Shown here: piece after piece, positions 3,527 through 23,715 of the stretch | Numbering within the stretch: the stretch's first letter is position 1 | Layout: the number at the start of each line of letters is the position of its first letter | IMG/VR virus record: IMGVR_UViG_3300035670_010691 | Coordinates: 1 to 64,000 of that record | Source: a virus | Direction: 5' to 3' (one strand) | Length of the DNA: 64,000 nucleotides | The notes under the pieces: model-generated | What the model saw: only the letters and a program-made list of their open reading frames with translations | Database searches by the model: none | What the model was told of the DNA's origin: nothing | Made by a program: the position numbers and the translations under genes

Positions 3527-3538
3527 AAAGTATTAAAT

Positions 3539-4553: not shown

Positions 4554-4813
4554 TGATACTTGAAATAATTACAGTAATACTAACTCTCTCTACCCTTACT
4601 CTTTTATTTATTGTTCGAAATTTACTTTTGCAGAACGAACAATTAGAGGATACTCTTATAGAAACACTTGAAGACATTCAAATTAAAATTGAAAAGGCCT
4701 ACGAAGATATGCAGAATGCAGACTTACGTGGTTCTTTTGAATCCGATGATGAAGTTGGATCATCTTTTAAAGAAATTAAAGATATTATAGAAAATCTTAA
4801 AAATATTATATGA
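4553..4813 (+). CDS. Small single-pass membrane protein, unknown
   Basis: This 86-residue protein has a strong N-terminal transmembrane helix (about residues 3-24) and a charged, coiled-coil-like C-terminal half that includes AYEDMQNADLRGSFESDDEVG. The latter resembles a protein conserved among T4-like cyanophages, with no assigned role. Its place right after the transglycosylase (TAATG overlap) would allow a lysis-related or envelope role such as a spanin or holin partner, but no diagnostic motif supports that. It overlaps the sigma factor start by 4 nt. Confidence 0.6.
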   Translation: MILEIITVILTLSTLTLLFIVRNLLLQNEQLEDTLIETLEDIQIKIEKAYEDMQNADLRGSFESDDEVGSSFKEIKDIIENLKNII

Positions 4814-5583
4814 TAAAACAAAGAAAGAAAAAATCAAAAGTTTATTTTGGAAGTGAAGCACAACAAGCGATTATAGAGTATAATAAAACAAAAGACCCAT
4901 ACAAACGTTCAAAAATATATCAAGAAAGGATTAAATATCCTTTTGAAAAACTTGCAGAAAACGTAATTAATACGTTTAAGTTTCAATATTTTGATGTTTC
5001 AAAGGAAGATATACAAGTTGAAGTTGTTTCAACAATGGTTGAAAAACTCCATATGTATAAAGAAGGAAAAGGTCGAGCTTTTTCATATTTTACTATTGTT
5101 GCAAAAAATCACTTGATTCTTAAAAACAATGGAAATTATAAAAGGTGGAAGAAAAACGCTCTTATCTCTGAAATGCCCTCAACTTGGAATCCTGAAAATG
5201 ATTTTTATGAAGAAGAGGAGGCAACAGAGTTTAAGGAATTCAAAGATTTAATGTTAGAATATTGGGATAGAAATTTGACCCATGTTTTTTCAAAAAAAAG
5301 GGATATTCAAATAGCGGACGCAGTATTAGAGTTATTCAGAAGGTCTGATTATATTGAAAACTTTAATAAAAAACATTTATATCTTTTAATCAGAGAAATG
5401 ACTGATTGTAAAACTCATTATATTACCAAAGTTGTAAATGTAATGAAAGAACATCAAAAAATACTATTAAATCAATATTTAGAGTATGGTGATATAAAAA
5501 ATGGTAAAAACATTTTTTGGAGTGGAAGTAATTCTTTTGATGATGATTATTTTGACAGTGAAGATTATTTAGGTTATGATTGA
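4810..5583 (+). CDS. Late-transcription sigma factor (T4 gp55-like)
   Basis: This 257-residue protein resembles the gp55-type sigma factors of T4-like phages. The N-terminal half includes a region-2-like helix pair. QVEVVSTMVEKLHMYKEGKGRAFSYFTIVAKNHL is the hallmark region, read here as residues about 78-110 (opening QVEVVSTMVEKL, closing SYFTIVAKNHL). It binds the host RNA polymerase core and directs it to late promoters. The acidic tail (DDDYFDSEDYLGYD) could be the hydrophobic-acidic clamp-binding end, as gp55 and gp33 carry such tails. Its natural target would be the TATTTATA-type elements in this window. Confidence 0.82.
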   Translation: MIKQRKKKSKVYFGSEAQQAIIEYNKTKDPYKRSKIYQERIKYPFEKLAENVINTFKFQYFDVSKEDIQVEVVSTMVEKLHMYKEGKGRAFSYFTIVAKNHLILKNNGNYKRWKKNALISEMPSTWNPENDFYEEEEATEFKEFKDLMLEYWDRNLTHVFSKKRDIQIADAVLELFRRSDYIENFNKKHLYLLIREMTDCKTHYITKVVNVMKEHQKILLNQYLEYGDIKNGKNIFWSGSNSFDDDYFDSEDYLGYD

Positions 5584-7288: not shown

Positions 7289-7292
7289 TTTT

Positions 7293-7318
7293 AAAAACCT
7301 CCAATCGGAGGTTTTTTT
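7293..7318 (+). terminator. Rho-independent terminator after carbamoyltransferase
   Basis: CCTCC (7298-7302), the loop AATC and GGAGG (7307-7311) form a perfect stem, extended by five A-T pairs and ending in a run of seven T. It separates the early/middle block from the structural genes, and a TATTTATA element follows 9 nt later. Confidence 0.9.
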
Positions 7319-7326
7319 GTTTTGGA

Positions 7327-7334
7327 TATTTATA
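7327..7334 (+). promoter_or_regulatory. Candidate late promoter element TATTTATA
   Basis: This exact TATTTATA octamer lies 19 nt before the ATG of the first structural-block gene and directly after a terminator. The same octamer with similar spacing precedes other virion genes. It is the reverse complement of the T4 late core TATAAATA. Confidence 0.55.
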
Positions 7335-7353
7335 TAATAAAAACAATAATTTT

Positions 7354-7764
7354 ATGAGTGTAAATTTTGAATTATTTCCAGGAAAAGATTTAAGTGGTCT
7401 TTTTAAGGATATTTACGACAATCAACAAAATAAAAAACAAAGAATATCTGAACTTATTGCGGAGATGAAAAAGGTTATCCGTCATGCAGGAGATATGGCA
7501 GTCATCGGGCCAATTATAAAAGATTTGGTAGATACATCAGTTAAAAATGATGAGTCGTTGATTAAAATGGCTGCAATTGCTCAAAGATTAATTTCGTCAC
7601 AAGCCAAATCAGAAGGAGATGAGGGGTTTTTGTCTGAAAAAGAAAAAGAACAATTATTGAATGAACTCCAAATTACCATGTCTGAAGTAAAAGAGGAAAA
7701 CGAAGAAAGAGTTGATGAATTAACAAACGAGGTTGAGGAAATAAAACAAAAGTTGGGAAAATAA
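7354..7764 (+). CDS. Helical protein opening the structural block, unknown
   Basis: The frame is open from 7285, but the sensible start is ATG 7354, just after the terminator and late-type element. This gives 136 residues beginning MSVNFELFPGKDLSGLFKDIY. It is strongly helical with a Glu/Lys-rich coiled-coil C-terminal third (about residues 95-136). No family was recognised. Its position as first gene of the baseplate transcript suggests a virion or assembly protein. The stop lies 1 nt before the hub gene. Confidence 0.7.
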   Translation: MSVNFELFPGKDLSGLFKDIYDNQQNKKQRISELIAEMKKVIRHAGDMAVIGPIIKDLVDTSVKNDESLIKMAAIAQRLISSQAKSEGDEGFLSEKEKEQLLNELQITMSEVKEENEERVDELTNEVEEIKQKLGK

Positions 7765-7765
7765 A

Positions 7766-9007
7766 ATGTCAATAAGATTACAACAATCTGATAGAAGTGC
7801 TAGCTTTAAAACAAAAAAAGAAAATAATTTTTCTGCAAAAGTTTGGGATGTTATCTTAGATGAAAATAATGAAAATGTCGATGATTTAGAAGGAAGTGAA
7901 ACTGAGTCTAAAAATACGGCAATAGTTGGTTATGTTATAGTAAGAAAGGCAGATGATTCATTTACCGCTGACACAAGTTTAATTAGTTACCCCCCTCTAT
8001 TCCCCGATGAGGGTATTCCCTTGAGAGGTGAAACTGTTGATTTAGTAGAAATTGGAAATAGAAAATATTATAAAAGAAAAACAAATTCCAATTTAAATTT
8101 AGGTAACACTAATTCAACAAATTTTTTTAATAAAAAAGAAGATACCACTTCAAGTTCAACTTATAGCCAAAGTTCTTCAACAAAGTCACCACAGGGTGGT
8201 TCATCGGCGAATGAACCAAAAATTCCCGGTGAATATTTTAGTGAGCAACAAGTTAATCCTCTTAAATTATATGAGGGTGATAAATTATTACAATCACGAT
8301 TTGGTCAATCTATAAGATTTAGTGGATATAATAATGCAGATAATTCCTTTTCTCCAACAATACTAATTAGAAACAGACAAAATTCAGAAATAGAACAAGG
8401 AAGTTCTAAATCAAAATTAATTGAAGAAGACGTAAATAAAGATGGTTCAATTATAGCAATTACATCAGGTGACTATGAAATTAAACTTTCTCCTGGAACA
8501 TTAGATGATAATGGTTCTCAAAAAATGGAAACAACTCCAAAAGTTTTTGAATCATTTCCAAGTGAATTTAAAGGTTTAGACCAAATTTTAATTAACACGG
8601 GTAGATTAATTCTTTCTTCCAAAACAGATGAAATGATTTTCTTTTCAAAGGGAAATTATGGTTTTATTTCTGACGGTAAGTTTTCAATAGATAATGGAAA
8701 AGCTGGAGCGGAGTTAGATTTTAACGGTGAGTTTCGTATGACGATGAATGATAATCCAACTTATTTGTTGGGTCAGGGAACTTCGGGTAAAATATTTTTA
8801 AATATTGAGGCAGAAGATGAGCCATTAGTAAGAGGTGAAACTTTAAAAAAATTACTAACACAGTTGATAGATGAAATTTTAAAAATGGTTTGGGCCACAC
8901 CCGCTGGGCCGACTTCACCTGGTCCCCTTCCACCTCACGTTCAAAAACTTAATCAAATTAAAAAAGATTTACAAACTATGTTGTCTACTACAAACTTCAC
9001 GGAGTAG
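7766..9007 (+). CDS. Baseplate hub subunit (gp5-like, OB-fold, no lysozyme domain)
   Basis: This 413-residue protein matches the baseplate hub proteins of marine T4-like phages. It has an N-terminal OB-like barrel (with PLRGETVDLVEIGNRKYYKR near residues 88-105) and a ring-contact segment QSRFGQSIRFSGYNNADNSFSPTILIRN near residue 175-205, here noted by its ends QSRFGQSIRF and SPTILIRN. The C-terminal part has DEPLVRGETLKKLLTQLID and ends in MLSTTNFTE. It lacks the lysozyme domain that T4 gp5 carries between OB and needle domains. It would form the central hub under the tail tube. A Ser/Thr/Asn-rich linker spans residues about 110-155. Confidence 0.8.
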   Translation: MSIRLQQSDRSASFKTKKENNFSAKVWDVILDENNENVDDLEGSETESKNTAIVGYVIVRKADDSFTADTSLISYPPLFPDEGIPLRGETVDLVEIGNRKYYKRKTNSNLNLGNTNSTNFFNKKEDTTSSSTYSQSSSTKSPQGGSSANEPKIPGEYFSEQQVNPLKLYEGDKLLQSRFGQSIRFSGYNNADNSFSPTILIRNRQNSEIEQGSSKSKLIEEDVNKDGSIIAITSGDYEIKLSPGTLDDNGSQKMETTPKVFESFPSEFKGLDQILINTGRLILSSKTDEMIFFSKGNYGFISDGKFSIDNGKAGAELDFNGEFRMTMNDNPTYLLGQGTSGKIFLNIEAEDEPLVRGETLKKLLTQLIDEILKMVWATPAGPTSPGPLPPHVQKLNQIKKDLQTMLSTTNFTE

Positions 9008-9009
9008 AT

Positions 9010-9573
9010 ATGTCTATATCAGCATTTAAAGCAAATTTAACAAATTATTTGAATAAACCTGAAAATGTAAAAGATTCGGATGATTTTGCAACTTTTTTAA
9101 CACGAGAATACGATACACTAATTAAGTCAGGATTTCAAACAATTAACTCTATACCAATAATGACTTCTAATGTTAGTGGTATGGAAAGTAATATAAAATC
9201 TGTATTAAAAGCAACACTTAATGTAACAGTTTCACCAACGCCAATAATTCAGAATTTGGGTCCTGGATTTATTACTTATTGGACCGGAGCTCAACTTTTA
9301 GCAGGACCTCCACCAATAATTCCCGCAATTGGTGCTGTTTCAAATGTTAGTAGTGTTTCAAATCCTGTTTTAAATCCTGGTACATGGGTAGTTCCGTCAC
9401 CTCAGGCTCCATCCGATAGTGTAAATCCATTTGTTTCTGTTTTAATTTCTACTATTCAAACTCATTTAACAACAATAAGTGGATTATACAATACACTTTC
9501 TATTTATCCCGCTCCTCCTGGGGCTCCACCGGCTCCAGGTGTTTTACCTTGGGTGGGTTACACCGTTCCTTAA
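9010..9573 (+). CDS. Proline-rich virion-associated protein, unknown
   Basis: This 187-residue protein follows the hub gene after 2 nt. The N-terminal helical part carries ATFLTREYDTLIKSGFQT, followed by PGFITYWTGAQLL and a Pro/Ala/Gly-rich C-terminal half with PPPIIP, PAPPGAPPAPG and WVGYTVP. I do not recognise the family. Its position between hub and wedge genes argues for a structural or baseplate-assembly role. No signal peptide is present. Confidence 0.65.
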   Translation: MSISAFKANLTNYLNKPENVKDSDDFATFLTREYDTLIKSGFQTINSIPIMTSNVSGMESNIKSVLKATLNVTVSPTPIIQNLGPGFITYWTGAQLLAGPPPIIPAIGAVSNVSSVSNPVLNPGTWVVPSPQAPSDSVNPFVSVLISTIQTHLTTISGLYNTLSIYPAPPGAPPAPGVLPWVGYTVP

Positions 9574-9594
9574 TTTAATAAAACAAATCTTATA

Positions 9595-9602
9595 TATTTA
9601 TA
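9595..9602 (+). promoter_or_regulatory. Candidate late promoter element TATTTATA
   Basis: This exact octamer ends 19 nt before ATG 9622, the same spacing as the copy at 7327-7334. It lies in the 48-nt AT-rich gap between two structural genes. Confidence 0.55.
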
Positions 9603-9621
9603 GTAAATTAAATGATTTATT

Positions 9622-10233
9622 ATGGATAATAAGAAATTAGTAGAAGTAATTAAACTAATTGTTGAAAAAGAAGTAAAAAGACAATTACCGAACTTAATTA
9701 AAGAAGAAGTTTCTAAACAGGTCAAACTTCTAAAAGAAATTAAACCGAGTAAATTAAAGAAAAACTTGGTAGAAGAAGAAGTATATGATCCATTTGAAAT
9801 GGCTAATATGGTTTTAGAAGAAGATAGAGTAGAACAAAAAACAACTTCACCATCATTCTTAAAAGGAAGACAACTTACCAAAAATCCCGTTTTAAACGAG
9901 GTTCTTGCTCAAACCCAACCCTTTACTCACCAACAAAGAAGTAATGGATTGGCGGGTAATTCTTCTGTGTTAGATCAGTTTTCACAATCTAATATGTTAA
10001 ATGAAGAAACTGGTTACGAAGAATGGCCAACTATGAATACCGCTTTTCAACCACAATTTCAAGAAGACCCAAATCAAGTTCGTGTAAATATGAGAGCACA
10101 AATGGAACAACAAATGGGATTGAGTGGTGGTAGTTCAAGAAAAAATGGTCTTGGTGTAACAACAGGCTTGGCTGGTTTAGATAGAATTTTAAATAGAGAT
10201 AATTCGGAGTTAGTAAAAAGGTTTAAAAAATAA
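9622..10233 (+). CDS. Helical structural-block protein, unknown
   Basis: This 203-residue protein has a basic, amphipathic N-terminal helix (KLIVEKEVKRQLPNLIKEE) and a disordered Gln/Asn-rich middle. The C-terminal segment GLAGLDRILNRDNSELVKRF looks like a short binding motif. No catalytic motif is visible. It sits directly before gp25 with a TAATG overlap, so it is probably a baseplate-related protein, but I cannot name it. Confidence 0.65.
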   Translation: MDNKKLVEVIKLIVEKEVKRQLPNLIKEEVSKQVKLLKEIKPSKLKKNLVEEEVYDPFEMANMVLEEDRVEQKTTSPSFLKGRQLTKNPVLNEVLAQTQPFTHQQRSNGLAGNSSVLDQFSQSNMLNEETGYEEWPTMNTAFQPQFQEDPNQVRVNMRAQMEQQMGLSGGSSRKNGLGVTTGLAGLDRILNRDNSELVKRFKK

Positions 10234-10667
10234 TGGCTTATGTAATTGGTAAAAAAGTTGTTAAAGATACAGAAGATTTTGATTCTTTTGCATATGGATT
10301 GAAACTTCCTTTACAAAGAGGTCAGAATGGGTATTTTGAGCAGAATTTTACCTCATTTGATCAGGCCAAATCAAATCTTTTAAATTTACTTCAAACTCAA
10401 CAAGGTGAAAGAGTCATGCAACCTTTGTATGGTTCTGGTTTACAAAATCTTCTTTTTGAACAAATGGAAGATGGTATATTTGAAACAAGACTCCAACAGG
10501 TTATAACAGATAGTGTAAATTTTTGGTTACCTTATATAACAATCGAATCAATTGAAGTTGAATTAACGGATCAAATGAAAGATGAAAATAAAGCAAATTT
10601 AAAAATTCAATTTACAGTTGGAAACGAAATAGATTTACAAGAAATAACATTTACGGTAAGTGGATAA
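10233..10667 (+). CDS. Baseplate wedge subunit gp25
   Basis: This 144-residue protein belongs to the GPW/gp25 family (related to lysozyme-like wedge proteins of contractile tails and type VI secretion). The landmarks are the early LPLQRGQNGYFEQ, LLNLLQTQQGERVMQPLYGSGLQNLLFE (read by its ends LLNLLQTQQGER and PLYGSGL) and the helix VITDSVNFWLPYI. It forms the inner baseplate wedge with gp6 and helps nucleate the sheath. The gene order gp25 then gp6 is the usual one in T4-like phages. Confidence 0.9.
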   Translation: MAYVIGKKVVKDTEDFDSFAYGLKLPLQRGQNGYFEQNFTSFDQAKSNLLNLLQTQQGERVMQPLYGSGLQNLLFEQMEDGIFETRLQQVITDSVNFWLPYITIESIEVELTDQMKDENKANLKIQFTVGNEIDLQEITFTVSG

Positions 10668-10671
10668 ATAA

Positions 10672-12705
10672 ATGGCAGAATTAAATTCAATAACGAAAAA
10701 AAGTAATAAAAATAGAGATATAAATTATCTTGCAAAAGATTTTGCATCATTTAGGCAAAATTTAATTGAGTATTCAAAAATTTATTTTCCTAAAACATAT
10801 TCTGATTTTAATGAATCATCACCCGGCATGCTTTTTATTGAAATGGCAGCATATGTTGGTGACGTTCTTTCATATTACATAGATGATACTCTTAAAGAGT
10901 CTTTAATGTTATATGCGGAGGATAGAGATAATGTTATAGCCCTTTCTCAGTATTTAGGATATAAACCAAAAATTACATCACCTGCAATTTGTAAAGTTGC
11001 AGTTTATCAATTAGTTCCAAGTATTGGTTTAGGAAAAGATAACAGACCCGATTCGAAATATTATTTTAGAATTAAGGAAGGGATGGTATTAGAAGGTTCA
11101 GATACGGGTGTAAGATTTAGAACAACTGAACCTGTTGATTTTAATGACCCCGATGAACGAGAAATTACTATTTTTCAAAAAGACGGAAATGAACCCCAAA
11201 CATACCTTATTAAAAAATATGTAAATGCAATTTCAGCAACACAGAAAACAATTAGAAAAATTTTCTCTGATATAGAAAGTTTTGCAAGAATTGATTTACC
11301 TGAAAAAAATGTTATTGATATAACCGATGTTAGAGATTCCGATGGTAACAAGTGGTATGAAGTTCCATACTTGGCTCAGGAAATGGTGTATGTAGATTAT
11401 CCAAATTCTGAACAAAATGATAAAGAACTTTATCAATTTAAAGACTCAGTTCCGAGTATTTTAAAATTAATTAAAACACAAAAAAGATTTGTAAAACAAA
11501 TTAATTCAGACAATACAACTTCAGTAGTATTTGGTGGAGGTAGTGAAGTTACTTCTGATGAGACTTTAATACCAAATTTTAAAAATGTTGGTTTAGGCTT
11601 ACCAAACTCAATAGATAGATTAAATTCTTCTTTTGACCCTGCAAATTTTCTTAAACAAAAAACCTACGGTCAAGCTCCTCCTATAAACAAAGAATTTACA
11701 GTAACTTATTTAGTTGGTGGTGGTGTTCAAAGTAATGTTTCTAAGGGTGAATTAACAAGAATAATTTCAATAGAATATGATGAAGATACCTCAATTTTTT
11801 CTGAAACCGAGTTATCTTTATATAGACGATATAAGAGTTCAATTGCAATTGAAAATGAGACACCTGCCACAGGTGGTAAGGGAGCAGAAACAATCGAAGA
11901 AATTAGAGAAAATGCACTTGCTACATTTGGGTCACAGAACAGAGCAGTAACACGAAAAGATTATCAAGTACGTGCTCTTTCCTTACCTCCAAAATATGGT
12001 GGCGTTGCAAAAGCATATTGTGCTCCTGATGGTGAATTGGATAATAATTCCCCATCTTCTATTTTAACAAATCCAGATCACTTACAAGAATTTACTGATT
12101 TAGTAAAATCATTTGTAGATAAACCTGATAATCAGGAACCGTCTGAGCAAGAAATTAAAGACCAAATTAGAAAATTTTTAATTGGTAAAAAACAAAACAT
12201 AGATGAAAAAAATAATCCTTTTGCAATAAATCTTTATTTACTCGGATATGATAGTGAAAAAAAACTTACAACTTTAAACAGAGCTGTTAAAGAAAATGTA
12301 AAGACCTACCTCAACGAATTTAGAATGCTTACCGATGGTGTAAATCTTTTAGATGGTTTTATTATTAATATTGGAGTTGATTTCGAAATTAGAGTTTATG
12401 GTGGTTATAATAAAAGAGAAGTTCTTATAAGATGTATTAATGAACTAAAGGAATATTTTAATATTGATAATTGGACGTTTAACATGACAATTAATATTTC
12501 AGAAATTGAATTATTAATTGCAGGTGTTGAGGGAGTTCAATCTGTTCCAAAATGTGAAATAGTTAATAAATGTAGTGGAGTTTATTCAGAACATTCGTAT
12601 AATATTTTAGCAGCAACAAGAAACAAACTTGTATATCCATCATTAGATCCATCGGTATTTGAAGTTAAATACCCCGACAAAGACATAGTAGGGAGAGTCG
12701 TATAA
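10672..12705 (+). CDS. Baseplate wedge subunit gp6 (gpJ-like)
   Basis: This 677-residue protein, directly after gp25, has the gp6/gpJ layout. The N-terminal INYLAKDFASFRQNLIEYSK and ESSPGMLFIEMAAYVGDVLSYYIDD segments are the family hallmark, followed by the central ETIEEIRENALATFGSQNRAVTRKDYQ region and a C-terminal dimerisation part with IINIGVDFEIRVYGG. gp6 dimers form the ring linking baseplate wedges round the hub. T4 gp6 is 660 residues, so the length agrees. The start lies 4 nt after the gp25 stop. Confidence 0.9.
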   Translation: MAELNSITKKSNKNRDINYLAKDFASFRQNLIEYSKIYFPKTYSDFNESSPGMLFIEMAAYVGDVLSYYIDDTLKESLMLYAEDRDNVIALSQYLGYKPKITSPAICKVAVYQLVPSIGLGKDNRPDSKYYFRIKEGMVLEGSDTGVRFRTTEPVDFNDPDEREITIFQKDGNEPQTYLIKKYVNAISATQKTIRKIFSDIESFARIDLPEKNVIDITDVRDSDGNKWYEVPYLAQEMVYVDYPNSEQNDKELYQFKDSVPSILKLIKTQKRFVKQINSDNTTSVVFGGGSEVTSDETLIPNFKNVGLGLPNSIDRLNSSFDPANFLKQKTYGQAPPINKEFTVTYLVGGGVQSNVSKGELTRIISIEYDEDTSIFSETELSLYRRYKSSIAIENETPATGGKGAETIEEIRENALATFGSQNRAVTRKDYQVRALSLPPKYGGVAKAYCAPDGELDNNSPSSILTNPDHLQEFTDLVKSFVDKPDNQEPSEQEIKDQIRKFLIGKKQNIDEKNNPFAINLYLLGYDSEKKLTTLNRAVKENVKTYLNEFRMLTDGVNLLDGFIINIGVDFEIRVYGGYNKREVLIRCINELKEYFNIDNWTFNMTINISEIELLIAGVEGVQSVPKCEIVNKCSGVYSEHSYNILAATRNKLVYPSLDPSVFEVKYPDKDIVGRVV

Positions 12706-13763
12706 TGTATTATTTTGTTACTTCATCAAAAGATGCAACCATTTATTTACAGCAACCATCACAGAATACAGGTAGAGATGAAATACTTGAAATTTCTAAA
12801 ACTTATTATGGAAATTTAAAAGATGTTGCTCATTCACTAATTAAGTTTGATACCGACACTCTTTCTACACTTATTTCGAATGGCGAAGTAACGATGTCTG
12901 AAGCAACTCTTATTTTAAGAGAAGCAGAAAGTGATGAAATTCCACTTGATTATACTATTTACGCAAATCCAATTTCTGGTAGTTGGGAAATGGGTATTGG
13001 TACTCGTTTTGATGAAATATCATCACAGGGTGTTACCTGGTCTAATCGTTCAACCAATGTTAGTTGGTTGATTGGTAGTTATGATACGGGTGTAACTGGT
13101 TCATTTGATGGTAAAGGTGGAACTTGGTATACGGGTTCAGAATCTACACAATCATTTTCTTATGAGTCAGTAGATATTTTTATGGATGTTCTTAATCCGA
13201 TGAAAGAATGGTTAAGTGGTTCTCTTCCAAATGAGGGTTTCATCTTAAGACATTCATCTGCTTTTGAAAATGATACAAATGACTACGGTCAATTAAAGTT
13301 TTTCTCAAAAGAAACAAATACAATATACCAACCAAAAATTAGAATTGGTTGGGATGATTCATCATTTAGTACAGGCTCACTTACTGAATTAACTGCAGAT
13401 GATATTCAAGTTACTTTCAAACGACTTAAAACAAAATACAAAGTTAACTCAAAACCTGTTATAAATGTTTTTGGTAGAGAATTGTATCCTCTTAAAACAT
13501 ACCAAAATCAATTTGCGTACAACGATATAAAGTACTTACCATCTACAACTTATTACCAAATTAAAGATGTAATAACAGATGAAGTTCTTATACCATTTTC
13601 TGATTACTCAAAAGTTTCGTGTGACTCTAATGGAAATTATTTTAAATTAAATCTTACAAATTGGGAAACAAATAGAGAATATTATATTGAAATTAAAGTA
13701 GAAAGAGATGGAGTTATAGAATACTTCTCGGATAAAGACTTAACTTTCTTGGTTGAAAAATAA
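12705..13763 (+). CDS. Virion protein with DNRLRE-like beta domain
   Basis: This 352-residue protein begins with KDATIYLQQPSQNTGRDEILEI. It matches the DNRLRE-type domain (beta-sandwich linked to carbohydrate or cell-surface proteins), with RSTNVSWLIGSYDTG and a later segment ILRHSSAFENDTNDYGQLKFFS typical of that fold. The C-terminal 120 residues form a second beta-rich domain (VTFKRLKTKYKVNSKPVINVF). It probably decorates the baseplate or short tail appendage. The gene overlaps gp6 by 1 nt (TAATG) and the next gene likewise. Confidence 0.65.
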   Translation: MYYFVTSSKDATIYLQQPSQNTGRDEILEISKTYYGNLKDVAHSLIKFDTDTLSTLISNGEVTMSEATLILREAESDEIPLDYTIYANPISGSWEMGIGTRFDEISSQGVTWSNRSTNVSWLIGSYDTGVTGSFDGKGGTWYTGSESTQSFSYESVDIFMDVLNPMKEWLSGSLPNEGFILRHSSAFENDTNDYGQLKFFSKETNTIYQPKIRIGWDDSSFSTGSLTELTADDIQVTFKRLKTKYKVNSKPVINVFGRELYPLKTYQNQFAYNDIKYLPSTTYYQIKDVITDEVLIPFSDYSKVSCDSNGNYFKLNLTNWETNREYYIEIKVERDGVIEYFSDKDLTFLVEK

Positions 13764-15172
13764 TGGGTTTAGATAAAGAATTTAGAATCGAGGAATTACT
13801 TAAAAGTGGTTCTACTGCAATTACTTCTCTTGATGAAGATAAGAGACACACGTTTTTTGTACCTTCTCCAAGAGGTGACCGTGATGGTGAAACATCGGGT
13901 TATATTGAAAAACCAAAATATAACGAACGTGAGCTTACAAAGGTTGTTGATACAGTTATAGATGAATTAGTACCACCACCACCGCCACCGCCAAGGCAAC
14001 AATTTGTTTTAAAAAGTTTATACGATCAATTAAGTAATGATTATAATCTTTTGTTAGAACAAATTGCTAATTTGCAAACTCAGGTTAGAAATTTAGAATC
14101 ACAGGTAAATTTACTTCAAAGTGAAAATACAGCTTTACAATCACAAATTCTTTCACAACAAGAAACAATAACATCTTTACAGGCTGTAATTGAATCATTA
14201 ACAGTACAGTTACAACAATCTATTAATGATAAAAATAATTTACAATCAGAAATAAATAACCTCAATATAAAAATTGCGGAATTGAATGCTCAAATAGAAG
14301 CATTAAAAGGAAATATTCAAAATAATCAGATAACTATTTCTTCTAATGAATCAACAATTAGTGATTTAAGAGCAGAAATACGAGAATTAAATAATCAACT
14401 TCAAGCAGCTACTCAACAAAATATTAATTTAGCTGGTTCTTTATCAGAATCAAAATCACAAAACGAGCAATTAAATAGTGGTATAAATCAGTTAAATGTG
14501 GAAAATTCCCAATTAAAAAGTGAAATTGAATCATTAAGAAGGGAAATAACACAATTATTAGAAAGAATTAGACAATTAGAATCTTCACAAGGTTCTCCGT
14601 CTTCTACCCCGACGCCTACAAGAGGTGGTGGTGGTGCAATTAGACCAACCCCAACTCCAACCCCGACAAGAAGAACAGGTGGCGGTAGTCCTGTACAGAC
14701 TCCAACCCCAACTCCAACGAGAACCCCAACCCCAACCCCAACGAGAACAGCAACTCCAACTCCAACAAGAACACCAACTCAAACTCCAGTTGCAACACCA
14801 ACTCCAACGGCAACATATGTTTCCGTAGATTGTATTGAATATAATGTAACTCCTTTACAAGCAATTGGTGGTGCAGTAGAAATTGAATATGTAGATTGTG
14901 GTAATCAACAAAGAAGACAAAGTGTAACTTCTATTATTACATTAAAGGCAAAAAGAAATAGTATTGAGTTTGTAAGTGGATATGGAATAGTAAGTGAAAA
15001 ATTTAATAATTTTTCAACTCCAACTCCAACACCTACACCAACATCTACACCCACACCAACTCCAACTTCGAATTTTGGAACTGGTGGTCAAACAGGGGAA
15101 CAAGGAGGTGGAACTGATACACAGGATGGACTTCCATCTATAAATGATGGTAACACGGGAAGAATAAGATAA
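13763..15172 (+). CDS. Coiled-coil virion protein with Pro-Thr linkers
   Basis: This 469-residue modular protein has a short N-terminal attachment region, then PPPPPPP (about residues 73-79). A long coiled coil (residues 85-275) is built of LQSEN, LNIKIAELNAQIEAL and related heptads. A Pro-Thr/Gly linker (281-350) follows, then a small beta domain (353-418, QQRRQSVTSIITLKAKRNSIEF), a second PT linker and a Gly-rich tail ending NDGNTGRIR. The coiled coil predicts a fibre-like trimer or dimer. The beta domain is related to one in the next gene. I infer a tail fibre or baseplate spike component. Confidence 0.7.
   Translation: MGLDKEFRIEELLKSGSTAITSLDEDKRHTFFVPSPRGDRDGETSGYIEKPKYNERELTKVVDTVIDELVPPPPPPPRQQFVLKSLYDQLSNDYNLLLEQIANLQTQVRNLESQVNLLQSENTALQSQILSQQETITSLQAVIESLTVQLQQSINDKNNLQSEINNLNIKIAELNAQIEALKGNIQNNQITISSNESTISDLRAEIRELNNQLQAATQQNINLAGSLSESKSQNEQLNSGINQLNVENSQLKSEIESLRREITQLLERIRQLESSQGSPSSTPTPTRGGGGAIRPTPTPTPTRRTGGGSPVQTPTPTPTRTPTPTPTRTATPTPTRTPTQTPVATPTPTATYVSVDCIEYNVTPLQAIGGAVEIEYVDCGNQQRRQSVTSIITLKAKRNSIEFVSGYGIVSEKFNNFSTPTPTPTPTSTPTPTPTSNFGTGGQTGEQGGGTDTQDGLPSINDGNTGRIR
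14603..14814 (+). repeat. Pro-Thr codon repeat tract 1
   Basis: This is an imperfect 6-nt repeat of CCAACN/ACTCCA type, coding (Pro-Thr)n broken by RGGGG, RRTGGG and TRT spacers. It forms an extended linker in the coiled-coil virion protein and is a hotspot for slipped-strand length change. Confidence 0.85.
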
Positions 15173-15177
15173 CAAAA

Positions 15178-15185
15178 TATTTATA
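15178..15185 (+). promoter_or_regulatory. TATTTATA element close to a start codon
   Basis: This exact octamer ends only 3 nt before ATG 15189, in a 16-nt gap between two structural genes. If it works like the other copies, the transcript would begin at or just after the start codon, so any transcript from it would be leaderless. Confidence 0.45.
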
Positions 15186-15188
15186 TAA

Positions 15189-17165
15189 ATGGCACTAACT
15201 AACTATAAAACAATAAAGGATAGAAAAGGATTTTATGTTTCCGATGAAGATAGACAGATATTTGAATCGGAAATTATAAAAACCAACTATGGTCTAAATT
15301 TAGATGACCATCTTGAATTTATTTTGTATGATAGTGCAAACAATCAATTACCACAAACAGATGAAGGTTTTTTAGTACGTTATATTCCATTAACAGATGA
15401 GAATATACGAAAATATTTTATTACAACAAAAACAAATTTTACTAAAAAAGCAAATGATTCATTTGAATTTATAGTTGATATTGAAAAATTAGTAAAAGAA
15501 GCTGGATATTCAAATGGTATTTTTAAAACTTCTGTTACAATAGTAAATAGAAGAGTTGGAAATGAAAGCCCTGTACAGCAAGAATCAAAAGATTCATTTA
15601 CAAATAAGTTGTGGATACAGCAAATTTCACCATCAAGGACGGAAATAAGACTTTTACCATTAAAACCAAAAGGAACAGTCCTTCCTGATTTGGAAAAAAG
15701 ATTTTCAATTTTTACAAGAGAATCTCAATTTAGAGACGATACTATTTACTATATTGATGAATATATTGAAAATGTAAAATTAGAAAATATATTAAGAAAT
15801 TTTATTACCAAAAATGGAAAAGTTGAAACAGGTCAAAATTATATAAATTTAATTAGAGAAGAATTTAAAATATATGATTTTGAAGATTTTGTTAGAAAAA
15901 TAAAAGATGCATGGAAATCAACCGTTAGATACTATGTTGAAAATAGAGAGTGGAGAATAAATAGAACGAATTTCGGACAACCTTTAAATACTCCAATAGA
16001 CGTTGAGCTATCAGAAAAAAATTTAATTGAAGTAAGTAAAACATCGTTAATTTTAATAATAGAAAAATTTTTACCGAAAAGAAAACTTACTTCGGAAAAT
16101 ATTCTTACACCTGATGAACAGAAAACTTTTGATGAAGTACAACAGCTATTATTAACATTAATTGATAAAAATAAAGAAGTAGTTTCTTCTGAAATAAAAT
16201 ATACTACTGCAATAGTAAGGGGATGTACTGATCCAAATGCTCTTAACTTTAATGTAGAGGCAAACGAAGACGATGGTAGTTGTAGATATGCATATGATAA
16301 TGTATATGTGACTCCAATTCCTACACCGACGCCTTTACCAACCCCAACGCCATTGCCGACTCCAACACCAACACCTACGCCGTTGCCGTCACCAACTCCA
16401 ATTTTTTCACCAATACCGACTTCTACACCAACACCTACACCAACAAGAACCCCAACACCTACGCCAACGCCGATTACTAAAGTATTCTATGTATGGTCTG
16501 ATGAGGGTGCCGTTGAATATAATGATGCTAATGGAAGAAGACGAAGAGAAAGTGGATTGGAATATGAAAGTTTCTTAGTAACATATACGGAAATAGTAAG
16601 TAAAGATGGTGATGTTAGAGAAGTTCCAAAAGAAAGACCAAGTGCAACTCCAACACCGACACCAATAAATCCAGTAAATGGATTTAGGTTACCTACCCCT
16701 ACACCTACATTTGTAAGTCAGCCTCCAAGAGAAGAACCTACACCTACACCTACGCCTACACCACTTCCAACGAGAACACCGACACCAACACCTACTCCGT
16801 TTCCAACACCAACACCTACTCCGTTGCCAACACCAACACCTGTATTTTACGAATACAGAATTAAGAATTTTTCAGATGTAAAAGATAGAGATGAATTAGT
16901 ATTTTCATTTACTGATTTTAGTGGTAGAAGACAAGAATTGAGTGTGTCACCACAAAGAACTGTGACAGTTTGTGCAAGACAAAATAGCGTTGTAAGAGTT
17001 TCTGGTACGAATGATTTTAATATATCAAAGTTTTCAGAATGTACGGTTATACCATCAACACCAACCCCAACACCAACCCCAACACAAGTTTCAAGTGGAG
17101 GTGGAGGAGACAGTAGTGAGTTTGATAATGTTTTTGATGGAATACCTGTTGAAAACATAAGATAA
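15189..17165 (+). CDS. Modular virion protein with Pro-Thr linkers and small beta modules
   Basis: This 658-residue protein has an N-terminal domain of about 340 residues (beta-rich then helical; FTKKANDSFEFIVDIEKLVKEAGY), then a cysteine-containing GCTDPNALNFN-DDGSC motif (residues 345-363). That motif resembles the calcium-binding-like repeats of bacterial adhesins. After it, Pro-Thr linkers alternate with two small beta modules (about 431-484 and 551-621). The second module, FSGRRQELSVSPQRTVTVCARQNSV, is recognisably related to one in the preceding gene. Function is inferred as an appendage or adhesin of the tail tip. Confidence 0.7.
   Translation: MALTNYKTIKDRKGFYVSDEDRQIFESEIIKTNYGLNLDDHLEFILYDSANNQLPQTDEGFLVRYIPLTDENIRKYFITTKTNFTKKANDSFEFIVDIEKLVKEAGYSNGIFKTSVTIVNRRVGNESPVQQESKDSFTNKLWIQQISPSRTEIRLLPLKPKGTVLPDLEKRFSIFTRESQFRDDTIYYIDEYIENVKLENILRNFITKNGKVETGQNYINLIREEFKIYDFEDFVRKIKDAWKSTVRYYVENREWRINRTNFGQPLNTPIDVELSEKNLIEVSKTSLILIIEKFLPKRKLTSENILTPDEQKTFDEVQQLLLTLIDKNKEVVSSEIKYTTAIVRGCTDPNALNFNVEANEDDGSCRYAYDNVYVTPIPTPTPLPTPTPLPTPTPTPTPLPSPTPIFSPIPTSTPTPTPTRTPTPTPTPITKVFYVWSDEGAVEYNDANGRRRRESGLEYESFLVTYTEIVSKDGDVREVPKERPSATPTPTPINPVNGFRLPTPTPTFVSQPPREEPTPTPTPTPLPTRTPTPTPTPFPTPTPTPLPTPTPVFYEYRIKNFSDVKDRDELVFSFTDFSGRRQELSVSPQRTVTVCARQNSVVRVSGTNDFNISKFSECTVIPSTPTPTPTPTQVSSGGGGDSSEFDNVFDGIPVENIR
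16312..16479 (+). repeat. Pro-Thr codon repeat tract 2
   Basis: An imperfect hexanucleotide repeat codes PTPTPLPTPTPLP-type sequence. Degenerate third positions (CCA, CCG, CCT, ACA, ACG, ACC) show that the amino acid pattern, not the DNA, is being kept. Confidence 0.85.
16735..16842 (+). repeat. Pro-Thr codon repeat tract 3
   Basis: A third long PT linker in the same gene contains two near-identical DNA units (ACACCAACACCTACTCCGTT-like) with Phe or Leu as the only difference, a sign of recent tandem duplication. Confidence 0.8.
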
Positions 17166-17181
17166 GAAAAATAAAAAAAAA

Positions 17182-17189
17182 TATTTATA
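17182..17189 (+). promoter_or_regulatory. TATTTATA element close to a start codon
   Basis: This exact octamer follows an A-rich run and ends 4 nt before ATG 17194, repeating the very short spacing seen at 15178-15185. Confidence 0.45.
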
Positions 17190-17193
17190 GATA

Positions 17194-20100
17194 ATGTCAC
17201 TAATAGAAGAACCAAATAATCCAGGGGACTTAACAAATACGGATCCCGAAGGAAAAGTACCACAACCTGGTGATGGTAGTGGTAATGACACTATTGTATT
17301 CGAAGGGGATTCAGGTGGAGGTGGTGTACCAAGTCCTACCCCTACCCCAACACCAACAGAGGCTACTGTCGATGCAGGTGATAAAAATGTAATAATTGGT
17401 TTTTTTACAAATATATTAGGTGCAGAAGTATTACAAGATAACCAATCACTTGGTGTTAGTTTTACGCCTGTTGAAGTAAAATATACAACAAAAGAATTAT
17501 TAACACCAAAATTCTTTTCTGTTAGGAAAGAAAATTCAGAATCAACTGATATATTTAAAATTTATACAGTTAAAAAAAGAACTGATTTTAAAAAGAATTT
17601 TGATTTAAATACAACAGTTTTTTTCTATTTTGACATAATTGTAGAGAAATTTATTGAGGGGTCTTTCAAACAGGTTAGAGTTATTTCCCCGTACAGAGAT
17701 GGTGAGTTAATAAACGAAAATAGGGATGAATATTTACGATTAGATTTTAAACTTACACAAGCTCCACCTCCACCGCAAAAGACGGTAAATATTAATTTTA
17801 TTACTAATTTTCCAACATCCAACTTTCCTCTGTCATACAGATTGCCTGATGGAACAACAGGAAAAGTTTCTTCTAAAACAATTAAATATACTTTTAGAGA
17901 TGTTGATTTTGGTGAAGGATTATTGCAACCACAAATTGAAATATATCCAACAGATATATTAACTAATTACGAATTTCCATTATATAGACTTGAATTTTCA
18001 AATGGATTTACTTTAAATTTTCCAGGCCCATCTGCACTTTCAACTCTTACACCCGAGTTGGATATAACATTTAGAATTGAAGCAAAACAAATTCCCCCTG
18101 CTCCTAAAAAAATTAATATTGTTTTTCAAAATGATTTATTTGATGATGAACAATTAACATACAAATTATCAACTGATGGTATAAGACAGTTACCCAATGG
18201 TTCTTCAACTGTAACTTATACTTTAAAAGATAAAGATAATTTTATAACATTTGGTTCATTAGACGGTCCGGGTACTCTTCCTAATGATGTTGCAGTTAGA
18301 TATGAAATTCAAGAAGCTAATGGAAACATAAAGGAATTTAGTACTCCTTATTTTAGTTATAATTTTGGTGATACGGATATAAGGGTAAAGACATTATTTA
18401 CAAAAAATCCACCACCACCACCTATACCAACAAAATTACCACCTTTACCAAAAATTTGTAATGATATAAACGCATCAAACTATGGTCAAGAGGGAGATTG
18501 TGTTTATCCACCACCTCCGAAAAAAATCAAAATTATTTTTGAAAATGATTTGGCAATTGATGATTTGTTATATTTTAAATTGTCAGATTCTGTTAGAACT
18601 CCATTGATAAATGGTAGAACAGAATTAGAATATACTTTAAAATCAACAGACAACAATATTGTCTTTTCAACAAAGACTGGTGGTTCTTTACCTGAATTGA
18701 CTTCTGTAAATTATCAAATTGAAAGTTATTATGATAATGTTACAGAAACAAGACCTGATTTTCGTTTAGACTTAAATGACTCTGATGTAATCGTAAGAAC
18801 TGTTTTAGTTAAAAAAGATCCACCACCTCCACCCCCTACACCGACAAAGGTGGTGACAAGTGTATTAATTAATGTAGATTCGTCTTTAAATCAACCGTTA
18901 GAAATTAGTTTTTCTAATGGACAGACAAATGTATTGAGTAATGGTCAAAATAATTTTGATTACATTTTAAAAGATGGTGGGCCAAACTATTTTAGTATAT
19001 CTAATATCAAAGATTTAAGTGGATATAATTACACACTTCAAATTACAAATGGTAATAAACAAAAGTTTTATGAAAATGAATTAAATATTCTCGAAGAAAT
19101 TGAAGTATCAAAAGTATTTGCGAATATTGAAATTGTTAAAAAACCCGAAACGGTTATTGTATTACCAACTCCAACCCCAACTCCAACTCCAACCCCTGTT
19201 GAAGAAAAGCCAATTAAAATTACAATTACGTCTGATGTAGTTTTGGATGACGCATTGGCGGTAAGATTATCAAATGGGGTGGTTGAGAATATTAGAAATG
19301 GAAGTAAAACTCTTTTATACAAACCAAATATTAATGGTGCTAATTATTTAGAGTTTTTTCCTGTTTCCAACGTTAATTATTCAGAATACTCTATTAGTTA
19401 TTCCATACAAAATGGAAATAAATTAAGAGAAATTAATACATTTGATTTTAAAGAAGAAATAAATAATTCTGATATTGGAATTTTTATAGTTCTAAATAAA
19501 ATTACACAACAACCAAGAGCAGATGAACCAACGTTATCGTTACCTGATGAAATTATAACGTATAATTTGTTTGGTAGTTCAAAATTAGAAATTCCGTTTT
19601 ATTCATTAAATGCAGAATCAATAAGATATTCTATTGGCAATATTCAAAGAGAAATATCACCGGTTTCTCCTATTGTATTAGAAAATTCAGTTTTTAATAA
19701 TGGTGTTGGACAATATAAATTAACAGCACAACCATATTCAAGATTTGGAGGTTCGGGTAAAAATAAAAGTTTAGTCATAAATGTAATACAATCAACTTTT
19801 ATACCTGGTCCTGACATTCAAACAATTAATTATCCATCAAGAATACAAGGTGAAGATTTTGTTGGATTTAATGTTAATTTTGATATTGATTATTCTTCAA
19901 TCAATACAAATTATATTAAGATTTATGTTTCAAAAGTTGATGAATCATTTTTACTTTTAGGTAATGCAAAACCGAATGGTAAGATAACTTTTAATGTTGG
20001 TGAAATACTTTCAAAATCAAGATTATCTTATAATAGAGGAACTGATCAAATTTCATTTGATTTAATTTTAGTTCCTTATAACAATCAAGCGGATGAATTA

Positions 20101-23100
20101 GCACTTGGAAGACAAGAAAAAATATCAATATTTTTTGACCAAGGTTTAAGAATTAGAAGAGAAGATTTAGTTTCAGATTTAAGAGATGCATTCCAAAGAG
20201 AATTTAATGCATCGATTATTAAAAAAGATACGTCAAAAATATTAACGCACCAATTACATTTGGGTGATGGTAATAACAAATTAATTGCTACTTGGGCAAT
20301 AGATAGACAAACTCTTGACGATGATAGTTTAGTTCTTAAATTATATGAACCTCTTCCAAATGATGTAGAAACAGAACAACAGGTTTGGATTTCAAAAATA
20401 CAATCTATACCTATTGTTGATGAAATTCGTTTAGTAGATAGAGAAGTTTCAAAATGTACCCCACTACAACCTAATTTTAATGTTGATGTAAGTGACCCTA
20501 TTGGATATGAAATTATTGATAGTTTAGTTTCAAGTGGTTCTATAACATCAGTTGATTTAATAGCACAATATGTAAGTTCAAGTGAATTTACTCTTGAAGA
20601 ATTAGATTTACAATTTATAACAGGTTCGGGTAGTAATATTGATTATTATTGGAAAGATTTTGTCAAGTATTCATCAGCAGAAGAAAGAGTAGAGAATTTC
20701 TTTTATAAAGTAAGATTATTAGAATCTTATCAAAATGATATAAATATTTTATCATCAGGATCAGCATGGACAGGTTCTGTTGAAGTGGTAAAAGAAAGAC
20801 AAAGAACAGAACAAAAAATAAAACAATTAAAGGGTGGGTTTGATTCTTTTGAAAAATATCTTTATGATACAACTGGTTCACTTTCATATCCAAAGGTTGG
20901 AATATCACCGGTTTCCTCTTCTACCCAAGATGCCCTTGATTGGTTATATGTTGCTCGTGCTTCTGCAAGGGAATATGACACTTATAATGTTGATTTACTT
21001 GTAAATAATATACCAAGACATATTAGAGATGATGAACGGGGTGAGGAATTTATCCTCTTTTTTAATATGATTGGTCAACATTTCGATATTCTTTGGGCAT
21101 ATTCAAAGGGTATTGCAAAATCAAGAAGATTAGAACATAAATTAAATGTTGGTATTTCAAATGATTTAATTTATCATATGTTGGAATCTCTTGGTTGGGA
21201 CGCGGACATGGGAGTTGCATCTCAACTTCTTTGGGAGTATGCTCTTGGTAAAAATACAGATGGAACATCAGCGAGCTCGCTACCAGGAAAACAAAGACAG
21301 TATGAAATATGGAGACGATTATTAAATAACTTACCTTATCTTTTAAAACATAAGGGAACAAGAAGAGCAATGTACGCTGCTATGGCGTGTTATGGAATAC
21401 CGACTTCTATGTTAAGTATCATGGAATTCGGTGGACCTAATGAACCGACAAGAGGTTCAACCACAAAGGTTACTTTTGATGACCGCACTGCTGCAATTAA
21501 TATTGATAATAATTCATCTATCATTATTCCATGGAAGGAATATGTAAGTGGTTCTTATTCAGATTATCCAAATTCGGTAGAAGCTCGTATTCTAACTACT
21601 CAAAGACAAACACAAACTATTTTTGAAAATGAAGGAAATTGGTCTTTAAAAATAACAAGTGATACTGGTTCACTTGCAAGATTACAATTTGAAATTACTT
21701 CAAGTGGTGTCCATAGAATACTTTCATCATCTACATTTCCTTTTTATAACGATGAATATACTCAAATTGTTTTAAATAGAAACATAACAGGAAGTAGTGA
21801 AGAATTTCAAGTTTGGGCAAAAGAAGGTTTCCAAGGTAGAATAAGAAACGAAGAATCGGCAAGTTTTAGTTGGCCAACTGGTTCTACGAGTTGGGAAAGT
21901 GGTTCTCAAATAATTGTTGGTTCTGATTTTACAGGTTCTATTGATGAGTTTCGTTTATGGAGAGTTGATTTACTTGAAACTTCTATTGAAAATCACGCAC
22001 TTATACCTGATGCTATTGATGGTAATTCTTATTCATCATCTACCGAAGACCTTTTATTTAGATTGGACTTCGAATATCCAAGAAACTTAGCAGTATCATC
22101 TTCAAGTGGAATACCATCGGGTTCAATTAAAAACGTTTCTATAAATCAGGGGTATGGTGAAAGTTATGCAACAGCTTCTAACTTCCCGTCAGCATCATCA
22201 TATCCTTTCAACTATACACCATATGATAGAACAGTAGTTGCAAATGTTCCTTCAATCGGATTGACATTCGGTGAAAAGTTCCGTTTTGAAGAACAAGAAA
22301 AAATAACAGATTTAAGTCATAAAGCAAGAGCAACTAAAAAATCATTTGACCAGGCTCCCATTGACACGGATAGATTAGGTTTATTTTTCTCTCCCGTTCA
22401 AGAAATAAACATGGATATTCTTAAATCACTTGGTAATTTCAATATAGATGATTATATTGGAAATCCAGCTGATTTATATGAGGACAAATATAGTGATTTG
22501 GAACAATTAAGAGAATATTATTTCCAAAGATATAATCTTAACTTTAATGAATACATTCAATTAGTAAGATATATTGATAAAACTATTTATACCACACTTG
22601 AATCACTTGCACCTGCAAGAGCAAAGGTTTCAAAGGGATTATTAATAGAACCACACTTTTTAGAAAGAAGTAAAACTAAATGGGAAAGACCGACAGGGTT
22701 AGTTGAAGGTGAGGAAACAAATTTACCAATTGTAGTTCCTGTTACATCATCTTATATTAACAATGAAGTAACTTTAAATTTAGAAAATGAAGTTTCTATA
22801 AATGGTGAAAATTTTGTTTATGATTCTAATCCTATAGATACAATAAATGAAAACCTAGCCTCAGAAAATATATCATTCGAATCTGATTTAGATGCAACAC
22901 AAATTACAAATTTGTCATCTGACAATATTACTTATGAATCAGATTTAGATATTAATGATGATATTGTTATTGAAGCAACAAAAGATAACTTTATTTCATT
23001 AATTGAATTAAATGAAAATATTTTATTGGAAACATCTAAAATTGATTACCAAACTAATTTAAATCTAAAAGAAGATTTTCCGATAGATAGTGAAATATTA

Positions 23101-23715
23101 GTAAATTCCGGATCAGATATGGGTGGTATTTCAATTTCTGTAAATGCACAAATTGTGGGTACAATTCAAGGTGAATACGAATCTGATGTTTTTAAAGAAA
23201 TTGGTTTAGATAAAAACTCCCCTTTTGTAGCCGGTTTTGGATTATATGCAGAAGATGGAAATTCAATAAGAAGTTATTATGATGACTATGGAAACTTAAA
23301 ACAAGAAAGAGTTAAAGTATTTAAAATAAAAGAGTCATATACAGTAAAAACTCCTGAAAATATTAATACATCCGATTCGAGTTTGGGTAGTGAAAAAATT
23401 TCAAGAACATATTTTAGAAATAAAATATCAATACTACCATTTACAGGTAGTAATGGATTGGAGATAAATGACCCACAAGTTTCTGGTAATATAACAGAAG
23501 TATCTCCTTTGAATGGATATTTACCTTCACATTATCGTTATGTTGGAGACTTAACTTCTGGATTGATTAATAGTTATCATAAGGGTGCAAAACAAACATC
23601 TTTGACAACATTAGATGGTTCATCACCCGTTCAAATCTTTACTACAAATCCAAATACTTTACGAGTTACAGATACAGGTAGAGGAAGTGGCGAGCCAATT
23701 CTTGAGGTTGAATGA
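17194..23715 (+). CDS. Giant tail/baseplate protein (2173 aa) with LamG-like domain
   Basis: The domains are, in order, an acidic Gly-rich N terminus with a PT linker and a beta domain. Next come five related modules of about 100 residues (about 196-770), separated by polyproline (PPPPPP, PTPTPT). The second and third modules are KKINIVFQND- and KKIKIIFEND-type, and a degenerate C-ND-NASNYG-GDC motif sits before the third. A helical tail-protein core near residues 1270-1420 has FILFFNMIGQHFDILW and YHMLESLGWDADMG. A LamG-like sandwich (about 1436-1630) contains FTGSIDEFRLWRVDL. The C-terminal beta-rich end follows. The core resembles large structural proteins of marine myoviruses. A gp7-like wedge-arm role is possible but unproven. 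Confidence 0.75.
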   Translation: MSLIEEPNNPGDLTNTDPEGKVPQPGDGSGNDTIVFEGDSGGGGVPSPTPTPTPTEATVDAGDKNVIIGFFTNILGAEVLQDNQSLGVSFTPVEVKYTTKELLTPKFFSVRKENSESTDIFKIYTVKKRTDFKKNFDLNTTVFFYFDIIVEKFIEGSFKQVRVISPYRDGELINENRDEYLRLDFKLTQAPPPPQKTVNINFITNFPTSNFPLSYRLPDGTTGKVSSKTIKYTFRDVDFGEGLLQPQIEIYPTDILTNYEFPLYRLEFSNGFTLNFPGPSALSTLTPELDITFRIEAKQIPPAPKKINIVFQNDLFDDEQLTYKLSTDGIRQLPNGSSTVTYTLKDKDNFITFGSLDGPGTLPNDVAVRYEIQEANGNIKEFSTPYFSYNFGDTDIRVKTLFTKNPPPPPIPTKLPPLPKICNDINASNYGQEGDCVYPPPPKKIKIIFENDLAIDDLLYFKLSDSVRTPLINGRTELEYTLKSTDNNIVFSTKTGGSLPELTSVNYQIESYYDNVTETRPDFRLDLNDSDVIVRTVLVKKDPPPPPPTPTKVVTSVLINVDSSLNQPLEISFSNGQTNVLSNGQNNFDYILKDGGPNYFSISNIKDLSGYNYTLQITNGNKQKFYENELNILEEIEVSKVFANIEIVKKPETVIVLPTPTPTPTPTPVEEKPIKITITSDVVLDDALAVRLSNGVVENIRNGSKTLLYKPNINGANYLEFFPVSNVNYSEYSISYSIQNGNKLREINTFDFKEEINNSDIGIFIVLNKITQQPRADEPTLSLPDEIITYNLFGSSKLEIPFYSLNAESIRYSIGNIQREISPVSPIVLENSVFNNGVGQYKLTAQPYSRFGGSGKNKSLVINVIQSTFIPGPDIQTINYPSRIQGEDFVGFNVNFDIDYSSINTNYIKIYVSKVDESFLLLGNAKPNGKITFNVGEILSKSRLSYNRGTDQISFDLILVPYNNQADELALGRQEKISIFFDQGLRIRREDLVSDLRDAFQREFNASIIKKDTSKILTHQLHLGDGNNKLIATWAIDRQTLDDDSLVLKLYEPLPNDVETEQQVWISKIQSIPIVDEIRLVDREVSKCTPLQPNFNVDVSDPIGYEIIDSLVSSGSITSVDLIAQYVSSSEFTLEELDLQFITGSGSNIDYYWKDFVKYSSAEERVENFFYKVRLLESYQNDINILSSGSAWTGSVEVVKERQRTEQKIKQLKGGFDSFEKYLYDTTGSLSYPKVGISPVSSSTQDALDWLYVARASAREYDTYNVDLLVNNIPRHIRDDERGEEFILFFNMIGQHFDILWAYSKGIAKSRRLEHKLNVGISNDLIYHMLESLGWDADMGVASQLLWEYALGKNTDGTSASSLPGKQRQYEIWRRLLNNLPYLLKHKGTRRAMYAAMACYGIPTSMLSIMEFGGPNEPTRGSTTKVTFDDRTAAINIDNNSSIIIPWKEYVSGSYSDYPNSVEARILTTQRQTQTIFENEGNWSLKITSDTGSLARLQFEITSSGVHRILSSSTFPFYNDEYTQIVLNRNITGSSEEFQVWAKEGFQGRIRNEESASFSWPTGSTSWESGSQIIVGSDFTGSIDEFRLWRVDLLETSIENHALIPDAIDGNSYSSSTEDLLFRLDFEYPRNLAVSSSSGIPSGSIKNVSINQGYGESYATASNFPSASSYPFNYTPYDRTVVANVPSIGLTFGEKFRFEEQEKITDLSHKARATKKSFDQAPIDTDRLGLFFSPVQEINMDILKSLGNFNIDDYIGNPADLYEDKYSDLEQLREYYFQRYNLNFNEYIQLVRYIDKTIYTTLESLAPARAKVSKGLLIEPHFLERSKTKWERPTGLVEGEETNLPIVVPVTSSYINNEVTLNLENEVSINGENFVYDSNPIDTINENLASENISFESDLDATQITNLSSDNITYESDLDINDDIVIEATKDNFISLIELNENILLETSKIDYQTNLNLKEDFPIDSEILVNSGSDMGGISISVNAQIVGTIQGEYESDVFKEIGLDKNSPFVAGFGLYAEDGNSIRSYYDDYGNLKQERVKVFKIKESYTVKTPENINTSDSSLGSEKISRTYFRNKISILPFTGSNGLEINDPQVSGNITEVSPLNGYLPSHYRYVGDLTSGLINSYHKGAKQTSLTTLDGSSPVQIFTTNPNTLRVTDTGRGSGEPILEVE
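17779..19500 (+). repeat. Five tandem ~100-residue protein modules
   Basis: Modules start near 17779, 18107, 18521, 18850 and 19208. Each opens with a strand such as VNINF, INIVF, IKIIF or IKITI, has a middle TVTYTLKD / ELEYTLKS / NFDYILKD strand, and ends before a Pro-rich linker. DNA identity is low, so the duplications are old. Confidence 0.7.

Follow-up and report, generated by a model that had tools for sequence, protein, structure and literature searches.

What are the runs of alternating proline and threonine in three adjacent genes of a phage baseplate block, and what might they do there? The source phage is T4-like and known only from metagenomes (IMG/VR record IMGVR_UViG_3300035670_010691). 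We analysed the first 64,000 bases of its 108,914-base record, referred to here as the window. The initial annotation had read the tracts as linkers between small domains of virion proteins that could act either as extended stalks or as sites for O-linked sugars.

Pro-Thr tracts in a baseplate wedge block

The three genes, here called g1, g2, and g3, lie consecutively on the + strand, 3' of gp25, gp6, and a 352-aa gene. With gp25 and gp6 directly upstream, the block has the layout of a T4-type baseplate wedge block, and the order gp6, 352-aa gene, g1, g2, g3 is kept in about 35 of the 80 loci covered by a gp6-anchored scan, in agreement with the baseplate placement first proposed. Position and homology together suggest that all three products belong to the virion. 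Elsewhere in the window, a carbamoyltransferase gene lies 5' of the block (5576-7288; the contig of a related phage, L010, begins with what seems to be the same gene), and 33523-43536 encodes a 3,337-aa product that ends in a Peptidase_S74 chaperone domain and is probably a tail fibre. The genes and their Pro-Thr or proline-rich segments are as follows.

13763-15172, +, g1 (469 aa): N-terminal part kept in relatives, coiled coil, Pro-Thr linker, module M1, Pro-Thr linker, Gly-rich tail
13973-13996, +, polyproline tract PPPPPPPR of g1; a short proline-containing stretch lies at about the same place in relatives
14030-14617, +, predicted coiled coil of g1 (about aa 90-285), from many weak coiled-coil family matches
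14645-14815, +, Pro-Thr linker of g1 preceding M1, containing PTPTPTRT units
15017-15070, +, Pro-Thr tract of g1 following M1, of different length in different strains
15189-17165, +, g2 (658 aa): wedge N-domain, helical region, GCTDP..DDGSC motif, Pro-Thr linker, module M2, Pro-Thr linker, module M3, Pro-Thr tail
16311-16478, +, Pro-Thr linker from DGSC to M2 (64-aa gap with 24 Pro and 19 Thr)
16632-16844, +, Pro-Thr linker from M2 to M3 (72-aa gap with 27 Pro and 20 Thr)
17052-17087, +, Pro-Thr tract of the g2 tail
17194-23715, +, g3 (2173 aa): long N-terminal extension, wedge core, C-terminal part
17329-17358, +, Pro-Thr tract near the g3 N terminus
18409-18432, +, PPPPPIPT joint between g3 repeats 2 and 3
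18820-18846, +, PPPPPPTPT joint between g3 repeats 3 and 4
19165-19200, +, Pro-Thr joint between g3 repeats 4 and 5

Counting strictly, as three or more successive Pro-Thr units, we find 15 tracts, all in frame (5 in g1, 8 in g2, and 2 in g3). They had been placed at 13763-19200, and the last of them ends on that final base. No further tract of this kind occurs in the six frames of the window outside g1-g3, and a DNA pattern of four Pro-Thr codon pairs, run over the whole 108,914-base record, matches in these genes only. Shuffling each protein 2,000 times gave mean tract numbers of 0.0005, 0.001, and 0, and the observed number was never reached.

Codon use in the tracts is mixed to a degree similar to background (Pro, 1.42 vs. 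1.65 bits; Thr, 1.81 vs. 1.70 bits), and successive Pro-Thr units are identical at the DNA level in 9 of 38 cases against 5.5 expected (p ~0.10), so that simple recent repetition does not account for the tracts. The mixed codons likewise rule out slippage of a pure DNA repeat. The initial annotation took the codon variety as a sign that the protein pattern is selected; the data are consistent with this, in that mixed codons argue against recent slippage, but one tract differs in length between near-identical strains.

Modules and repeats joined by the tracts

The segments that the tracts separate, or that lie next to them, include three small modules, a short motif, and a series of beta repeats:

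14822-15010, +, module M1 of g1 (aa 354-416), a putative divergent member of the M3-type beta-module family
16221-16283, +, GCTDPNALNFNVEANEDDGSC motif (GCTDP..DDGSC) of g2
16476-16631, +, module M2 of g2 (aa 430-481; FYVWSD...GDVREVPK), kept in seven relatives; predicted with pLDDT ~95
16845-17042, +, module M3 of g2 (aa 553-618), a predicted small beta domain with pLDDT blocks of 59-90
17779-19500, +, five divergent beta repeats of g3 (aa 196-300, 305-405, 443-541, 555-650, and 672-769)

Structure prediction of the modules and comparison of tract lengths between relatives had both been suggested as checks, and both bear out the linker assignment. In the AlphaFold2 model of g2, the helical region, M2, and M3 are folded and the tracts between these confident modules are unfolded, supporting the claim that the tracts link small domains. 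The pLDDT is ~40 over most of the DGSC-M2 linker and 31-56 in the M2-M3 linker, low values that are no proof of an extended shape. As a fully extended polyproline II helix (~0.31 nm per residue), the 64 and 72 residues would span at most ~20 and ~22 nm. In g3, some of the beta repeats are connected by polyproline or Pro-Thr, and their number is five here vs. one found in each of seven relatives. A degenerate copy of the GCTDP..DDGSC motif is present in g3 (18457-18501), and in relatives the motif occurs once or twice in g2 and also at some g3 N termini. M2, this motif, the five g3 repeats, and the g1 polyproline tract had not been mentioned in the initial annotation.

That annotation had also proposed one beta module common to two of the genes, and we located both copies, QQRRQSV at 14906-14926 (M1, in g1) and GRRQELSV at 16923-16946 (M3, in g2). 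M3 is matched by a profile built from relatives alone, with the window left out (g2 residues 554-618, E 2e-8). The direct likeness of M1 to M3 is weak (Smith-Waterman shuffle p 0.008), and M1 gives no match with the narrow M3 profile. A wider, hand-picked profile to which modules from other phages were added does support the proposal, with 0 of 4,993 shuffled decoys scoring as well as M1, and 1 of 4,964 once the closest member was removed. With moderate confidence, M1 and M3 may thus be placed in one loose beta-module family. M3 yields chance matches only against 50,697 phage records, g1 and g2 have no match among phage records, PHROGs and Pfam return nothing specific for the modules, and a PDB structure search with the g2 model returns nothing below E 0.001. 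M2 and M3 are at most putative binding modules.

BACON or Ig-like domains are small beta domains repeated within phage virion proteins. The modules here resemble such repeats of phage structural proteins in that respect (PMC6949934), and differ from them in that family searches gave no homology.

Relatives, linker length, and the g2/g3 pair

None of the ~35 relatives with the kept gene order has a tract of three Pro-Thr units. M2 and M3 are nevertheless both found in g2 of six relatives, and M2 in a seventh (L056), allowing the joins to be compared directly: the DGSC-M2 gap is 64 residues here vs. 7-10 in five relatives and 46 in L019, and the M2-M3 gap is 72 residues here vs. 7-8 in relatives. 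In L019, a short PIPTPTPRP stretch follows M3 in protein order, which could be how such linkers begin. The sister of the window phage in the gp6 tree, L010 (support 100/100), has g1-g3 without any tract and also lacks M2 and M3, so that arms built from these parts would be dispensable. By parsimony, and with a single sister row, we infer that the tracts were gained on the branch of the window phage.

A direct scan of viral contigs with g2 returned only a near-identical strain, L009, which differs from the window by one base across its positions 265-18867 (~18.6 kb). Within its first 264 bases lies a localised divergent patch:

14957-15109, +, divergent patch (153 bases) vs. L009 1-264, with 14 substitutions and +12 bases, equal to two extra Pro-Thr units

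The patch covers the end of M1 and the next Pro-Thr tract of g1, is flanked by identical sequence on both sides (~98 bases at left), and by our reading of the alignment changes six codons and leaves seven silent. It could stem from a related allele brought in by recombination or from chimeric assembly, the latter being conceivable because the patch lies near the contig start. The lengths of g2 and g3 are unchanged between the two. Over longer distances, g1 is conserved in position among relatives and its C-terminal domain is swapped; the homologues in L014, L016, L017, L018, and L020 end in an ICNELY/ICTEMY-type domain and others in beta-looking ones, a pattern of repeated swapping. A g2 homologue in L073 (4228-6207) carries past M3 a Hint/intein-like segment (CFVEGTLVTL...ILVHN), recognised by eye.

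The scaffold to which these additions are attached can be traced further, through three segments:

15189-15713, +, g2 N-domain (aa 1-175), homologous to the N terminus of distant single-chain wedge proteins
20146-22743, +, conserved wedge core of g3 (aa 985-1850), with homologues in Microcystis, Flavobacterium, and uncultured phages
21460-21960, +, LamG/LNS-like beta sandwich predicted in the g3 core, pLDDT mostly 83-93

The distant relatives have no separate g2, and the g2 N-domain matches the N termini of their single-chain wedge proteins (HMM E 1e-12 to 3e-4; profile-profile hhalign E 8e-17). Ahead of the core, g3 has 984 residues, compared with 389-652 where relatives keep the two genes separate, 127-156 in most of the single-chain proteins, and 361 in two others (L088 and L089). 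Like the locus here, Microcystis phage Mel-JY01, Flavobacterium immuto phages, and LR756508 have a g3-core homologue close 3' of gp25 and gp6; they differ in encoding one chain, where the window phage has two genes, modules, linkers, and an extension of 984 residues. From these comparisons, g2 and g3 most likely descend from a single wedge protein that was lengthened and then divided, modules and linkers having gathered near the split, although the rooting of the tree is too loose to tell a split from the reverse, a fusion. The best structure matches of the g3 core are LamG/LNS domains, its beta sandwich matching neurexin LNS domains in the PDB (E 1e-5, target TM ~0.5); nothing in the Flavobacterium phage alignment corresponds to this sandwich. 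The alignment behind the g3-core model leaves out three rows from a phage collection. Profiles of g2 and of the g3 core match no PDB sequence, and homology of the core to T4 gp7 or another solved wedge protein is putative.

The tracts had been called uncommon in T4-like phages, which applies to the ~35 gp6-anchored relatives but not beyond, since they recur in or beside the wedge homologues of four other contigs. In L104 (gp6 42% identical), a separate g2-like gene is followed by an ORF with Pro-Thr tracts and a similar module; L162 and L106 have 14 and 5 tracts, respectively, in ORFs with a wedge-core match; and L228 encodes a single-chain homologue of 3,713 residues with one tract near its C terminus. 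The tracts of all four lie outside the conserved core; in L106, L162, and L228 they sit in accessory parts of the wedge-core homologue, and in L104 in the corresponding gene slot. Both L104 and L162 have modules similar to those here. All four are distant, and L106, L162, and L228, unlike the window phage, carry their tracts in C-terminal extensions. In L162, a minus-strand ORF of 1775 aa contains seven near-copies of a DCNFNVDLTIIT-like segment with Pro-Thr tracts between them, in the C-terminal extension of the wedge-core homologue. In viral contigs at large, Pro-Thr tracts are common, judging by the matches listed. A literature search of open-access papers found none on Pro-Thr linkers in phage baseplates.

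Probable spacer arms and alternative readings

Bacterial cellulase linkers of alternating Thr-Pro act as extended spacers (PMC3490864, PMC6151902). As in those of CelA of Caldicellulosiruptor bescii and of GH6-CBM2 enzymes, the segments here are of low complexity, alternate Thr and Pro, and lie between folded modules (PMC6151902, PMC3490864). That they fall between separately folding domains is indicated for g2 by relatives and AlphaFold2, and for g1 and g3 by sequence only. The two systems differ in that the proteins here are putative phage baseplate components, with GT39 not found in the record and glycosylation unsupported. Of the two roles first suggested, extended linkers give the best reading, from the short joins in relatives and the unfolded tracts of the AlphaFold2 model. 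We consider it probable (roughly 0.7) that the tracts are extended, unfolded interdomain linkers that space small modules off the baseplate wedge scaffold; presence in the virion would follow from position and homology, and the extended shape and a part in adhesion are likewise inferred. The tracts would have arisen on the branch of the window phage, replacing short joins at domain boundaries, in a g2/g3 pair that most likely came from one wedge protein, extended and then split. M1 in g1, M2 and M3 in g2, and the g3 beta repeats would be held away from the conserved scaffold, each wedge bearing flexible or semi-stiff arms whose modules could reach the cell surface.

The suggested link to sugars fares less well. 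A sugar cluster occupies 43560-63956 and includes three GT7 (beta-4-galactosyltransferase type) genes close together (49567-54575), two of them fused to LamG, as well as two radical SAM proteins (54572-55993 and 56739-58187), the first of which matches a twitch-domain radical SAM family (NF033640). It is quite unlikely that the tracts are mucin-like stalks with Thr O-glycosylated by enzymes of this cluster. Such stalks have parallels in the Thr-Pro linkers of C. bescii CelA, where secreted enzymes were no longer glycosylated once one GT39 enzyme was lost (PMC6151902), and in glycans on mycobacteriophage capsid and tail tube proteins, as cited in PMC12619734, and the three GT7 genes would add to the case. 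However, searches of the record, which may be incomplete, found no protein glycosyltransferase of type GT39 or GT41 (a host enzyme is possible), characterised GT7 enzymes act mostly on sugar acceptors, and GT7 genes also occur in two relatives whose long records contain no Pro-Thr tract. GT7 genes and tracts are therefore not coupled, and glycosylation of the tracts is not supported. It is highly improbable that the GT7 enzymes, two with LamG lectin domains, build Thr glycans on the tracts once an enzyme of the host, or an unrecognised one of the phage, has started the chain.

Two further readings concern neutral expansion and module exchange. As neutral repeat expansions, tolerated at domain joints and functionless, they could differ by two Pro-Thr units between near-identical strains and be missing altogether from the sister L010, as is seen; but this is unlikely when all tracts are in frame, confined to three genes, and placed between domains or at termini, when their codon mixture resembles background, and when g2 and g3 keep their lengths in both strains. 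Very unlikely is that the tracts serve mainly as exchange points at which modules are swapped between phages by recombination. The variable g1 C-terminal domain, the localised patch in L009 spanning M1 and a Pro-Thr tract, and the pairing of Pro-Thr with similar modules in other phages all favor exchange, but relatives swap C-terminal domains without any Pro-Thr tract, and the patch is a single one near a contig end.

Read as spacers, the tracts offer a natural comparison, in which the same modules in the same order are separated by 7-10 or by 64-72 residues, of how phage baseplates may gain reach, and it becomes testable what linker length contributes to phage adhesion. The locus further suggests that a wedge protein can become two genes while modules build up around the point of division, and that one kind of linker has arisen repeatedly in aquatic T4-like phages.
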